Origin: Deltaproteobacteria bacterium RIFCSPLOWO2_12_FULL_60_19
GTDB taxonomy: Bacteria; Desulfobacterota; Binatia; UBA9968
Reading direction: 5' to 3'
DNA: 60,127 nucleotides
Assembly (NCBI GenBank): GCA_001798595.1
Contig: MGSS01000028.1
Span: forward strand, 1 to 60,127
In this document: positions 32,059 through 49,105 of the stretch, in pieces
Layout of the letters: every line of letters starts with the position of its first letter
Numbering within the stretch: position 1 is the stretch's first letter
Notes under the pieces: model-generated
Databases searched by the model: none
Seen by the model: the letters and a program-made list of their open reading frames with translations, nothing else
What the model was told of the DNA's origin: nothing
Translations under genes and position numbers: made by a program

Positions 32059-32335
32059 CGCAATTCAATCTTATATACGACTTTCCATTAATTTCCACGC
32101 TGGAATGCGACTATCACCGCCGCCCGCCTGGGAGTCTCTCGGAGGGCCGGCGCGTGGGACGGGAGGGATCAATCGTACCTCGCGGCTACTCTCATCTCAT
32201 GGGAGCAGCGCAACAACGACGTATCGCGTCGGCCCGGAGAGAGATTTCCAGGCGGGCTGTCTTCCAGGAACTTGACAAAGAACCACTCAGACTATAAATC
32301 AGGTAACGCAAACATCGGAAAGAAAGGAGAATCTT
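32059..32335. other. Divergent intergenic region before the peroxiredoxin
   Basis: This 277-bp gap separates the thiolase-like gene (minus) from the peroxiredoxin gene (plus). It contains the promoter candidate at 32272-32298 and the ribosome-binding site AAGGAG. No other gene or repeat is convincing. Confidence 0.5.
32272..32298 (+). promoter_or_regulatory. Sigma70-like promoter of the peroxiredoxin gene
   Basis: A perfect -35 TTGACA (32272-32277) is followed by -10 TATAAA (32293-32298) at a slightly short 15-base spacing. The expected transcript would start near 32305, giving a 5' leader of about 30 bases with AAGGAG before the ATG. Confidence 0.55.
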
Positions 32336-32920
32336 ATGTCTGTTCGTGTCGGCGAAAAGGCGCCTGAGTTTACGCTTGACGGCGTCGTCAAAGGAGATTT
32401 CAAAACCGTCTCCTTGAAAGATTACCGCGGCAAGTGGCTGGTTTTGTTTTTCTACCCGCTCGATTTCACGTTCGTCTGACCCACCGAGATTAATGAATTC
32501 TCCGACAGGTTGTCGGAGTTCGAGCAACGGAATGCAGCAGTCGTGGCAGTCTCGACGGACAGCAAGTTTTCGCACAAGGCGTGGCTTCAGACCCCGCGCA
32601 AGAAAGGCGGCATCGAGGGATGCCAGTACCCGCTGCTCGCGGACTTTACCAAGAAGACGAGCGCGGACTACGGCGTCCTGCAAGAGTCCTCCGGCGTGGC
32701 GGTGCGCGGCCTCTTCTTGATCGAGCCGGAAGGAATCGTGGAGGCGATCCAGATCAACAATCTGCCGATCGGCCGCAACGTCGACGAGGCGGTGCGTCTG
32801 CTCGACGCCTTCCAGGAAAACAAGAAGCACGGCGTGGTCTGCCCGATCGGGTGGGCCAAGGGAAAAGAGGCGATCAACCCCGCCACAGCCGCAGCCTGGT
32901 TCGAGAAGCACGCGAAATAG
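32336..32920 (+). CDS. Selenocysteine-containing 2-Cys peroxiredoxin (probable)
   Basis: This AhpC/Prx1-type peroxiredoxin has 195 codons, reading from ATG 32336 (AAGGAG upstream) through one in-frame TGA (32477-32479) to TAG at 32918. The TGA falls exactly at the peroxidatic cysteine: the family motif FTFVCPTEI reads FTFV-U-PTEI. The rest of the frame is well conserved on both sides, including [15 protein letters not shown] and the resolving Cys in [10 protein letters not shown] frameshift or decayed gene would not put the only lesion at this residue. The enzyme would reduce hydroperoxides with a selenolate nucleophile, recycled by thioredoxin. selABCD genes are not in the window. Confidence 0.88.
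32477..32518 (+). promoter_or_regulatory. Bacterial SECIS-like hairpin at the TGA codon
   Basis: Twenty bases after the TGA, CTCCGACA (32500-32507) and TGTCGGAG (32511-32518) form a perfect 8-bp stem with a GGT loop. The apical loop is 28 bases from the TGA, inside the range usual for bacterial SECIS elements, and begins with G residues as is typical for SelB recognition. It lies inside the coding region, as expected in bacteria. Confidence 0.7.
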
Positions 32921-33037
32921 CCGTTCGCGTACGCAGCATACCTGCGCGGGCGCCCGCGATCCTACTCCGGGTGCCCGTGATCTTTCCCATGCGGCGATGG
33001 GCGGCCGAGCCCGCCGCTGCCGCTCCGGAGGAAAAAG

Positions 33038-33598
33038 ATGGAGACCATCGAGATTCCTCCCCTCTCCCAGAAGCGACTCCTCGGACTGTCGCGACAGACT
33101 CTAGAAAATTTCGTCCTCAAGCAGAACAGGCTGGCGCCGTTGGTGGATGATCCCCATCTGCTGACCTCGCGCTACGGCGCCTTCGTCAGCTTGCACCGGG
33201 GGCGCGAATTGCGCGGCTGCATCGGAACCTGCTTTCCGACCGACCCGCTTTACCAAACCGTCGCTGAGATGACCGAGGCGGCCGCCTCCCGGGACCATCG
33301 AGTTCAGCCGATTACTCCACGGGAGCTTGCCGAGATTGTGATCGATATTTCGGTTCTCAGTCAGTTAGAGCCCGCCGCCGCGCCGCTCTTTCTGGAAGCC
33401 GGCAAGCACGGCCTTCATTTGGAACAAGGACGAAGGCGAGGAGTCCTGTTGCCCCAGGTCGCAACCGAGCACGGCTGGGACATGGAAACTTTTCTCGCCG
33501 AGACTTGCGCCAAAGCGGGGCTGCCGAAAGACGCCTGGAAGTCGCCGGAGACTAAAATTTCCAGCTTCACCGCGTTGATCCTCGAGGAGGAGAGATGA
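33038..33598 (+). CDS. amrA: AMMECR1-domain protein (AmmeMemoRadiSam system protein A)
   Basis: This is a 186-residue AMMECR1-family protein. The signature LRGCIGTCFPTDPLY, with conserved Cys, is at about residues 58-72 and is followed by ASRDHRVQPITPRELAEIVIDISVLS. In many genomes the domain is grouped with a Memo-like protein and a radical SAM enzyme; neither is present here. The biochemical role is not established. The gene overlaps the next one by ATGA, so the two are translationally coupled. Confidence 0.88.
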   Translation: METIEIPPLSQKRLLGLSRQTLENFVLKQNRLAPLVDDPHLLTSRYGAFVSLHRGRELRGCIGTCFPTDPLYQTVAEMTEAAASRDHRVQPITPRELAEIVIDISVLSQLEPAAAPLFLEAGKHGLHLEQGRRRGVLLPQVATEHGWDMETFLAETCAKAGLPKDAWKSPETKISSFTALILEEER

Positions 33599-34410
33599 GA
33601 CGGCGCAACGCCCTCGCCTTTCTCGCCGGGTGGCTCCTCTTGCTGCCCCGCCGCGTGGCGGAGGCCGTCTGCAATCCTTCGATGGTCCGCCTGTTGGAAG
33701 GCGGGCGCGATCTGGTCCAGCTCCGCCCGGGCCGCTCGCCCCGGCTGGCCAACTACTCGATTCAGTGGTTCGGCCATTCGAGCTTTCTCATTCAGTCGGG
33801 AAGCGAAACCAAAGTCGTCACGGACCCGAACTTCAACGTCACGCCCGGCATCGCGGCTGACGCCGTCACCGTGAGCAACGACCACTTCACCCACAATAAC
33901 GTCGGCGCGGTCACGGGCAATCCGGTGATCCTGAGAGGCATCACGCTGCGCCAGACGTGGAATCCGATACGGACGAGCGTGAAGGACATCACGATCGTCA
34001 ACATTCCGAGCCAGCGGGGACCGGCTTGGGGCGAGGTGGCGAACTCGATCTTCATCTACGAGATGGGGAGCCTCTGTCTCGCGCACCTTGGAAATCTGGG
34101 GCATCTCCTGACGCCGGAACAGGAAAAGGTTTTGCAGAAAGTGGACGTGCTGATGACGCCGATCGATGCGATGACCAATCTCGGCTTTGAAGACTTGCTG
34201 AAGGTGATCGGGCAGGTGCGGCCGCCGATCGTGATCCCGATGCACTACGACGCGCCGCGCCAGGTCGAGCTGTTTGCCAATTTTGTCGGCGCGCGCCATC
34301 CCATCCGCCGGATCAAGGATACCCAGCTCGTTCTCAGCCGTCCGATGCTGCCCGCCGCCACCGAAATCTTCATCATGACCCACCCCCGCCCGCTCTTTTC
34401 CTGGGAGTGA
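33595..34410 (+). CDS. Exported metallo-beta-lactamase-fold protein with altered metal motif
   Basis: This 271-residue protein starts with MRRRNALAFLAGWLLLLP, which resembles a Tat or Sec signal. The body follows the UlaG/ElaC-like metallo-beta-lactamase fold: QWFGHSSFLIQSG, TKVVTDPNFN, VDVLMTPIDA and PIVIPMHYDA. The metal-binding loop, normally H-x-H-x-D-H, reads NDHFTH, so the first His and the Asp are replaced. The later ligand region (AHLGNLGH) is retained. The enzyme may bind one metal ion only or be inactive. It is translationally coupled to amrA. Confidence 0.75.
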   Translation: MRRRNALAFLAGWLLLLPRRVAEAVCNPSMVRLLEGGRDLVQLRPGRSPRLANYSIQWFGHSSFLIQSGSETKVVTDPNFNVTPGIAADAVTVSNDHFTHNNVGAVTGNPVILRGITLRQTWNPIRTSVKDITIVNIPSQRGPAWGEVANSIFIYEMGSLCLAHLGNLGHLLTPEQEKVLQKVDVLMTPIDAMTNLGFEDLLKVIGQVRPPIVIPMHYDAPRQVELFANFVGARHPIRRIKDTQLVLSRPMLPAATEIFIMTHPRPLFSWE

Positions 34411-34477
34411 CTCCTCCACGCGTCAGTCGGCCCAGGTTGGATTCTTCATGGCACGGGGAACAACCGCGGCACACTGT

Positions 34478-34577
34478 TGTCCGTGGGGCGAGCCGTGAAA
34501 GGCGACGGCACTGAACGTGAAGTTTCAGTGTTGCAGAGACCTATTGCCGTCGACTGGAAGGGCTTGCCCCACGGACA
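34478..34577. repeat. Triple-nested inverted-repeat element, 100 bp
   Basis: Three sets of arms are nested: TGTCCGTGGGGCGAGCC (34478-34494) with GGCTTGCCCCACGGACA (34561-34577, one mismatch), CGACGGCA (34503-34510) with TGCCGTCG (34545-34552), and CACTGAA (34509-34515) with TTCAGTG (34524-34530). This gives a compact branched or stacked hairpin between the MBL-fold and dksA-like genes. It could be a small structured RNA, a terminator or a REP/MITE-type element; no second copy was seen in the window. Confidence 0.55.
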
Positions 34578-34604
34578 CTGAACGATCGGGGTTAGGTTAC
34601 GTAT

Positions 34605-34633
34605 TTTACTTCACCATTTGTTAGTGTTATAAA
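34605..34633 (+). promoter_or_regulatory. Promoter candidate of the dksA-like gene
   Basis: TTTACT (34605-34610) and TATAAA (34628-34633) are separated by 17 bases. The predicted start near 34640 lies only about 7 bases before the ATG at 34647, so the message would have almost no leader. Confidence 0.45.
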
Positions 34634-34646
34634 AATCGAATTAGGC

Positions 34647-35033
34647 ATGAGCCTGGAAGGACTTTTAGTGAATCAGAGAGAGGTCAAGTTTTTCCGCCGG
34701 CTTCTCAAGCAGCGCGTTCAAGAGCTACTCACGGAAGCGGGTAAGACGGTCGAAGGAATGGATGAGGATGAGAATTTTCCCGACCCGACAGACCGGGCGT
34801 CCTTGGAATCCAACCGCAACTTCATCCTGCGCATCCGCGATCGCGAGCGCAAGCTGATCGTCAAAATCGAAGAGGCGTTGGCGCGATTGGACGACGGAAC
34901 TTACGGCGTCTGCGAGGAATGCGGAGAAAAAATCGGCGCCGAGCGGCTCAAGGCCCGGCCGGTGACGACCCTCTGCATCGACTGCAAATCGGACCAGGAA
35001 GTCGAAGAGAGAAAAAACCGACGGCTCGTCTAG
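34647..35033 (+). CDS. DksA/TraR-type zinc-finger regulator
   Basis: This 128-residue protein has an N-terminal coiled coil carrying the DksA tip motif DPTDRAS (DxxDxA type) and a C-terminal four-Cys zinc finger, CEECG and CIDCK, followed by a short helix. DksA proteins enter the RNA polymerase secondary channel and work with ppGpp. The length is slightly below the E. coli protein. It stands 17 bp upstream of galU and may be co-transcribed with it. Confidence 0.9.
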   Translation: MSLEGLLVNQREVKFFRRLLKQRVQELLTEAGKTVEGMDEDENFPDPTDRASLESNRNFILRIRDRERKLIVKIEEALARLDDGTYGVCEECGEKIGAERLKARPVTTLCIDCKSDQEVEERKNRRLV

Positions 35034-35049
35034 CTCTCCCCCGATCCGC

Positions 35050-35922
35050 ATGAGAATCAAGAAGGCGGTCATTCCGGTTGCCGGCTTGGGCACGCGGCTG
35101 CTCCCGGCAACCAAAACGGTCCCCAAGGAGCTGTTGCCGATCGTCGACGTTCCGGCGATTCAATACGTCGTCCAGGAGGCGGTGGACTCCGGCGTCGACG
35201 AAATCATCTTCGTCACCGGCAGAGGAAAGGACGGCATCGAAGATCATTTTGACGAGTCGCCCGAGCTCGTGCAGGTCCTGGAGCAGCGCGGGCAAAAGGA
35301 GCTGGTAGAACAGCTCAAAGCGATCTCCAAAATGGTCGAGGTCGTCTCGGTCAGGCAAAAGCAACCCCTGGGGCTCGGCCATGCCGTCCTTTGCGCCCGG
35401 GATCTGGTGGGCAGCGAGCCGTTTGTCGTTTTATTGCCGGATGATATTATCGACGCCGAGGTGCCGTGCGTGCGGCAGTTGCTGGAGGTCTTCGAGCAGA
35501 CGAAAGAATCGGTCCTGGCGCTTCGCCGGGTGCCCAAGTCCGAAGCGCACCGCTACGGAATCGTCGGCGGCAAAGCGATGAGCGAGCGGCTCTGCCAGGT
35601 CGATACGGTGGTGGAGAAGCCTCAGCCCGCCGACGCGCCGTCGGAGCTGGCCATTGTCGGACGTTACATCTTCCGGTCCGAGATTTTTTCCATGCTGGAA
35701 AAGGTCGCGCCCGGCAGGGGCGGCGAGATCCAGTTGACGGATGGCATTGCCGGGCTTTTGCGCGAACGAAAAATTTTTGGTTATGAGTTCTCCGGGATCC
35801 ATTACGACGTCGGCGACAAGCTCGGCCTCGTGCGCGCGACCGTAGCCTACGCGCTCAAGCGAGCCGATCTCCGGGAGCCGCTGAAAAAATTTCTGGCACA
35901 GGCTGTCAACGAAAAGCTCTAG
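35050..35922 (+). CDS. galU: UTP-glucose-1-phosphate uridylyltransferase
   Basis: This 290-residue GalU makes UDP-glucose from UTP and glucose-1-phosphate. The N-terminal nucleotide-binding motif KAVIPVAGLGTRLLPATK, followed by TVPKELLPIVD, is diagnostic, as are VRQKQPLGLGHAVLCA, the metal Asp in VLLPDDIID and the C-terminal GIHYDVGDKLGLVRATV. UDP-glucose supplies envelope polysaccharides and osmoregulated glucans. The length matches the family. Confidence 0.96.
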   Translation: MRIKKAVIPVAGLGTRLLPATKTVPKELLPIVDVPAIQYVVQEAVDSGVDEIIFVTGRGKDGIEDHFDESPELVQVLEQRGQKELVEQLKAISKMVEVVSVRQKQPLGLGHAVLCARDLVGSEPFVVLLPDDIIDAEVPCVRQLLEVFEQTKESVLALRRVPKSEAHRYGIVGGKAMSERLCQVDTVVEKPQPADAPSELAIVGRYIFRSEIFSMLEKVAPGRGGEIQLTDGIAGLLRERKIFGYEFSGIHYDVGDKLGLVRATVAYALKRADLREPLKKFLAQAVNEKL

Positions 35923-48464: not shown

Positions 48465-49105
48465 CGCTTGCCGTCCAGCAAATCTTTAATGAGTTGCTTG
48501 GCCCCCGCGCCGTCCCACTTGGCCGGGCCCCACATCCTGGCGAGCCCCTCGCCTTTAGGGCCGATCAGATAAGTCGTCGGCAAACCCCATGCCCCGTAGA
48601 GCAGGCCGATTTCACCCTCGGGATCGAAGAGCGCGGGATAGGTAAACTTAAGCTCCCGAACGAAGGCCAGCGCGTCGTCCCGGCTGTCCTTCACGTTGAC
48701 CGCGACAATCACAAAGCCCCTGGCTTTGTACTCCTGGTAAAGCCGCTCCATCTGCGGCATCTCTTCCCGGCACGGCACGCACCAACTGGCCCAGAAATTC
48801 AACATCACAAGCTTGCCGCGGAAGTCGGTTAACGCTACCTTCTTCTCCGCGCCGTCGACCGACGCCGGCTTCCACCACCGGCGCACTCTCTGCCAGAGCG
48901 AAGACTTGGGCGCGGCCCGGCCCTCCGAAAGCAGCGGCAGCGCAAATTCCGGCGTTGGAGAGGAATCTTTCATCGCCTCCAGGTTGGGCACCAGCTTGTA
49001 GTTCACCGCTCCGCTTGCGCCAGGTTGCGGCGCGATCGCGCCGCCCCACAGCCAGAGGCCGGCGAAGACGAGCAGAAAGCTCCGAGTGAGGATATTGCCA
49101 TTCAT
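48461..49105 (-). CDS. TlpA/ResA-like periplasmic thiol-disulfide protein
   Basis: This 214-residue exported protein has a signal segment (FLLVFAGLWLWGGAIAPQPG) and a thioredoxin domain with the redox motif ASWCVPCREEMP. The extra insert after the first strand (ALTDFRGKLVMLNFWASWC) and the GLPTTYLIGPKG cis-Pro loop fit TlpA/ResA proteins. It would be reduced by CcdA and act on cytochrome c or other periplasmic disulfides. The region between residues 35 and 80 is a low-conservation linker. Confidence 0.92.
   Translation of the reverse strand: MNGNILTRSFLLVFAGLWLWGGAIAPQPGASGAVNYKLVPNLEAMKDSSPTPEFALPLLSEGRAAPKSSLWQRVRRWWKPASVDGAEKKVALTDFRGKLVMLNFWASWCVPCREEMPQMERLYQEYKARGFVIVAVNVKDSRDDALAFVRELKFTYPALFDPEGEIGLLYGAWGLPTTYLIGPKGEGLARMWGPAKWDGAGAKQLIKDLLDGKR

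Follow-up and report, generated by a model that had tools for sequence, protein, structure and literature searches.

When a single TGA interrupts a peroxiredoxin gene exactly at its catalytic codon, is the gene broken, or does it encode a selenoprotein? A 60,127-nucleotide stretch of bacterial DNA (hereafter the window) raises this question with a forward-strand frame at 32336..32920. We confirm that the TGA-containing peroxiredoxin gene is real, with its UGA apparently read as selenocysteine (Sec). From the genomic comparisons below, we consider it very probable that the gene encodes a Sec-containing typical 2-Cys peroxiredoxin in which UGA 48 would be read by SelB and Sec-tRNA-Sec with the help of a hairpin.

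A typical 2-Cys peroxiredoxin with one in-frame TGA

Read through its TGA, the frame encodes 194 residues and ends in TAG, with no stop before that end other than codon 48 (32477..32479, + strand). The read-through protein matches the AhpC-TSA (140.6 bits) and 1-cysPrx_C (30.6 bits) domain profiles, and solved typical 2-Cys peroxiredoxins align to it almost end to end (4fh8, E 3.2e-69; human Prx2 1qmv, E 2.1e-66). Judged by sequence, the window protein is itself a typical 2-Cys (Prx1/AhpC-type) peroxiredoxin: the PxxxTxxC/U motif, the conserved Arg and the C-terminal resolving Cys are all present.

We surveyed codon 48 among relatives of the gene, scoring the best match per locus and keeping 80 of the 144 relatives found. 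TGC or TGT occupies this position in 63 of the 80 loci and TGA in the other 17, which, with the reading of the frame, bears out the original prediction of a single in-frame TGA at the peroxidatic Cys codon. A plasmid collection held 509 records with matches, every one below 60% identity. An Acetoanaerobium match, chosen since it is unannotated there, proved to carry Cys.

The predicted ribosome-binding site is present as AAAGGAG (32323..32329, + strand), six bases 5' of the ATG, seen both in the sequence and in the upstream alignment. A good promoter had also been predicted, and this claim stands in part: a TTGACA box (32272-32277) and a TATAAA box (32293-32298) form a promoter-like pair (32272..32298, + strand) that is kept in four of five orthologues (L022-L025, not L026), but a consensus promoter scan reported no promoter upstream of the gene, because the boxes lie 15 bases apart and the scan demands 16-18.

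The TGA is retained across assemblies

Codon 48 is also TGA in five orthologues from other assemblies (L022-L026). Four of them, L022-L025, share 90-91% protein identity with the window, come from assemblies titled Deltaproteobacteria bacterium, and correspond by contig coordinates to genes of four members of the window's family (G004, which is the genome of L022, G012, G018 and G022). The fifth, L026, is 64% identical and belongs to an assembly titled Planctomycetota (genome G193). With the window included, the TGA thus occurs in six assemblies. The orthologue is present in 5 of the 25 genomes of the family, and matches at E 1e-62 or better occur in 7 of the 148 genomes of the class, these five with TGA and two as Cys forms.

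The substitutions among these genes fall mostly at third codon positions. Between the window and L022, differences at positions 1/2/3 number 3/1/18 over the 47 codons upstream of the TGA and 15/3/63 over 145 codons downstream; for L026 the corresponding counts are 13/10/25 before and 32/21/64 after. The four genes downstream of the peroxiredoxin are shared between the window (33038-35922) and L022 (3786-6528) and presumably encode AMMECR1-like, metallo-hydrolase-like, DksA-like and GalU-like proteins. The neighbours of L026 look unlike those of the window and L022.

These comparisons bear directly on whether the TGA is a nonsense mutation or a sequencing error, so that the gene would be a pseudogene or codon 48 would really be TGC or TGT. 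Such an explanation draws on the predominance of Cys in the 80 loci surveyed, and single-base changes are the commonest assembly errors. Its probability is nevertheless very small, since the TGA recurs in assemblies whose proteins range from 64 to 91% identity to the window's, codon positions 1 and 2 are little changed on either side of it in L022-L025, and the window's own genome carries Sec machinery (below). Retention in five orthologues, one at 64% identity, makes sequencing error in particular very unlikely; the miscalled TGC or TGT that the original prediction named as its possible undoing did not turn up.

An equally slim chance attaches to the locus making two products: a brief peptide from the N-terminal part, and a C-terminal protein whose translation starts internally at TTG (32510). 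A plain listing of open reading frames does give 32510-32920 (136 aa), but codons 1-47 are constrained as strongly as the remainder, the start codon and ribosome-binding site lie 5' of the TGA, and neither product would contain the complete active site.

The host genome encodes the selenocysteine machinery

Reading UGA 48 as Sec presupposes a selenocysteine system, which the original prediction had inferred and proposed to verify by a genome search for selA, selB, selD and tRNA-Sec, naming a lack of selB and tRNA-Sec as evidence against it. The assembly that contains the window (G000; 97.11% complete, 162 contigs) has all four genes, each scoring above its cut-off. Profile searches detected SelB at 379.5 bits (cut-off 242.25), SelA at 603.7 (cut-off 267.9) and SelD at 383 (cut-off 125), and a tRNA-Sec with anticodon TCA at 76.6 bits (gathering score 47). 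The three sel genes adjoin one another on contig C142 and the tRNA gene is on C153. SelD itself contains one in-frame TGA, within AAGUAAK, at what we take to be the place of the catalytic Cys of E. coli SelD.

SelB is detected at E 1e-60 or better in 20 of the 25 genomes of the window's family. Across the five other genomes with an orthologue (G004, G012, G018, G022, G193), SelA and SelB each exceed their cut-offs in four and tRNA-Sec in three; in G193, the source of the distant L026, all three are above cut-off. Two genomes show gaps. G018 (78% complete) has selA and selB, with no tRNA-Sec above the gathering score, and G004, rated 100% complete, has no selA, selB or tRNA-Sec above cut-offs. 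In its sister G012 these three genes lie together on one contig (C185), so a single absent contig could account for the gap in G004; true loss of the machinery there is also possible.

A candidate SECIS hairpin with conserved silent sites

Downstream of the TGA lies a putative SECIS hairpin (32500..32518, + strand), present as originally described, with an 8-bp stem (CTCCGACA/TGTCGGAG) that starts 20 nt after the TGA and a G-first loop, GGT. A 2026 review (PMC13188914) sets these limits for bacterial SECIS elements: a 3-9 nt loop with G in its first two positions, a 4-16 bp stem, a spacing of 16-37 nt and a free energy no higher than -7.5 kcal/mol. The candidate falls within every one of these, with its 8-bp stem, a 3-nt loop starting GG, 28 nt from TGA to loop, and -14.6 kcal/mol for the 64 nt from the TGA.

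The hairpin by itself is within chance expectation. Folding energy proved uninformative as evidence for a SECIS (z = -0.77; 47 of 200 shuffles fold equally well), and 3010 of 20000 synonymous recodings produce a stem of equal or greater length. Four of the 45 Cys homologues, two of these four being identical in the tree, also have stems at least this long. An Rfam search of 32100-33100 (E up to 5) returned no SECIS, its sole match being tfoR, far under its gathering score.

Conservation at silent sites is a stronger SECIS sign than the fold itself. When the window and its five TGA orthologues are aligned, the longest stretch of codons with invariant third bases is codons 55-63, which contain the hairpin (9 codons; P 0.00055 in 20000 permutations); with L026 removed, it spans codons 53-63 (P 0.0039). 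Covariation over the six sequences gave the hairpin no support, the pairs being invariant except for one broken in two rows: in L023 and L026 a Ser-to-Pro codon change places an A-C mismatch in the stem.

Catalytic TGA codons recur in other redoxin genes

The window's genome contains 15 AhpC-TSA matches, seven of which have one TGA each. By eye, all seven TGAs fall at the catalytic position, in the motif TFVU for the window gene and GRWUPYC, TGGU, SPTU, ASWUPEC, GRWUPWC and GYWUPKC for the other six. These six lie on contigs C143 (15863-16255, L104), C71 (4282-4653, L105), C130 (906-1280, L107), C144 (65664-66005, L109), C13 (13459-13881, L111) and C3 (28205-28570, L112). The window holds a second AhpC-TSA match on the - strand (48551-48856), which lacks a TGA. 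G004 likewise has a TGA inside 7 of its 15 AhpC-TSA matches, despite the gap in its machinery. A scan of the window for further TGA-interrupted frames gave 10 candidates, none convincing by eye, under an overlap filter that would miss even the present gene.

Elsewhere in the window TGA is an ordinary stop: it terminates 21 of 46 long ORFs (a mechanically derived set that includes some chance ORFs), so there is no wholesale change of the genetic code. Decoding of the UGA as some amino acid other than Sec, through an altered code or a suppressor tRNA, is the least probable alternative. The frame is open whatever residue TGA encodes, but TGA ends 21 of the window's 46 long ORFs, sits at the catalytic Cys position in 7 of 7 TGA-bearing AhpC-TSA genes, and is matched by a tRNA-Sec with anticodon TCA.

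We therefore favour reading UGA 48 as Sec because the genome has the machinery, because the TGA is kept in five orthologues through mostly third-position change, and because G193, home of L026, has SelA, SelB and tRNA-Sec of its own. The conserved silent sites of the hairpin and its fit to published SECIS limits argue the same way, as do the six other AhpC-TSA genes with a catalytic TGA in a genome where TGA otherwise acts as a stop. Against this reading stand the chance-level hairpin, the stem mismatch in L023 and L026, and the machinery gaps in G004 and G018.

A predicted active site with a resolving cysteine

Pro41, Thr45 (32468..32470, + strand; the Thr of PxxxTxxU), Arg124 and Arg147 are identical in all 60 aligned rows. 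Cys169 (32840..32842, + strand) falls opposite the C-terminal VCP when the protein is aligned to solved 2-Cys peroxiredoxins, which marks it as the probable resolving Cys. All six rows of the window clade retain it, as do 40 of the 45 Cys rows and two of the nine Sec rows outside that clade. Cys96 (32621..32623, + strand), an extra Cys in GGIEGC, occurs in all six rows of the window clade and none of the 54 others; that it has a role is a guess.

The following sequence of events may be proposed. Judged by the sequence, SelB carrying Sec-tRNA-Sec would decode UGA 48, aided by the hairpin that starts 20 nt downstream. By analogy with known peroxiredoxins, Thr45 and Arg124 would position the selenol of Sec48 for attack on the peroxide. 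Cys169, which in the typical 2-Cys family lies on the partner subunit, would then react with the selenenic acid so formed to give a selenenylsulfide. A thioredoxin-like donor could then reduce the Sec48-Cys169 bond.

A separate origin of Sec is favoured

Is the window gene a member of the known PrxU family? Its protein scores 182.9 bits against the NCBIfam PrxU model NF040737, under the cut-off of 270, while two proteins of another Sec clade score 367 and 353.6. We built a tree of 60 rows from 33 of the 80 surveyed loci, 25 further loci (L119-L143), L144 and the window; L114-L118 repeat the window and L022-L025, so only L119-L143 were taken from that set. The tree omits 10 of the 17 TGA loci, the more distant ones.

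Within these rows, the window clade (6 rows, support 100/99) is separate from a second group of nine Sec and two Cys rows (100/99). The nine PrxU-like Sec rows are L130, L131, L134, L135, L137, L139, L140, L047 and L060. Seven of them lack the C-terminal resolving Cys (T in six, I in one) and may thus need a different resolving partner. Strict monophyly of all 15 Sec rows was rejected (p-AU 1.3e-82); a wider clade that also takes in the two Cys rows, equivalent to one gain and two reversions, was not (p-AU 0.083). From this topology, a separate Cys-to-Sec conversion in the window clade is favoured, though not proven. One survey (PMC1794560) tabulates 12 peroxiredoxins with Sec, along with five conversions of Cys to Sec for Prx, so repeated gain would suit the known pattern. 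A fuller scenario, in which the conversion took place in a lineage rich in Sec redoxins, the gene came to be shared with a planctomycete by transfer, and Cys96 serves as a further partner of selenium, is speculative and in our estimate improbable as a whole.

Relation to known selenoproteins

Sec peroxiredoxins are already known, and the evidence supports well that the window gene is a further example and not a new kind. By 2005, 43 'Prx' (COG1225) and 22 'Prx-like' (COG0450) Sec peroxiredoxins had been listed (PMC1088965). Our literature search, which covered sources in part, found no paper on this peroxiredoxin clade, and one may still exist. Such genes may already be present in material described in PMC13188914: metagenome-assembled genomes surveyed from groundwater, and a genome of Methylomirabilota for which 63 selenoproteins are predicted.

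The gene adds a lineage of Sec peroxiredoxins, and annotation that takes its TGA as a stop would split it in two. It also points to a bacterial group with a Sec codon in nearly half of its AhpC-TSA matches (7 of 15). The same class also contains Cys homologues that reach 59% identity, which offer a test of the advantage of Sec over Cys in a 2-Cys peroxiredoxin.

Three comparisons place the protein among known systems. PrxU, reportedly described from Eubacterium acidaminophilum by Sohling and colleagues in 2001, is likewise an AhpC-type peroxiredoxin with Sec in PxxxTxxU. The window clade differs in falling under the PrxU model cut-off, in forming its own clade, and in having the resolving Cys throughout together with the clade-only Cys96, in contrast to a resolving Cys in two of nine PrxU-side Sec rows. 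With the 'Peroxiredoxin (Prx)' selenoprotein family, as described in PMC13188914 and PMC9312934, the protein shares PF00578 and the TxxU / PxxxTxxU motif; PMC9312934 puts that family in COG1225 (Bcp), whereas the window protein resembles the AhpC/Prx1 type, listed as 'Prx-like', COG0450, in PMC1088965. Finally, the typical 2-Cys peroxiredoxins AcePrx-1 (4fh8) and human Prx2 (1qmv) match the window protein over nearly the full length, including the Thr, the Arg and the resolving Cys, but the window protein would have Sec in place of their peroxidatic Cys and has the extra Cys96 in GGIEGC.
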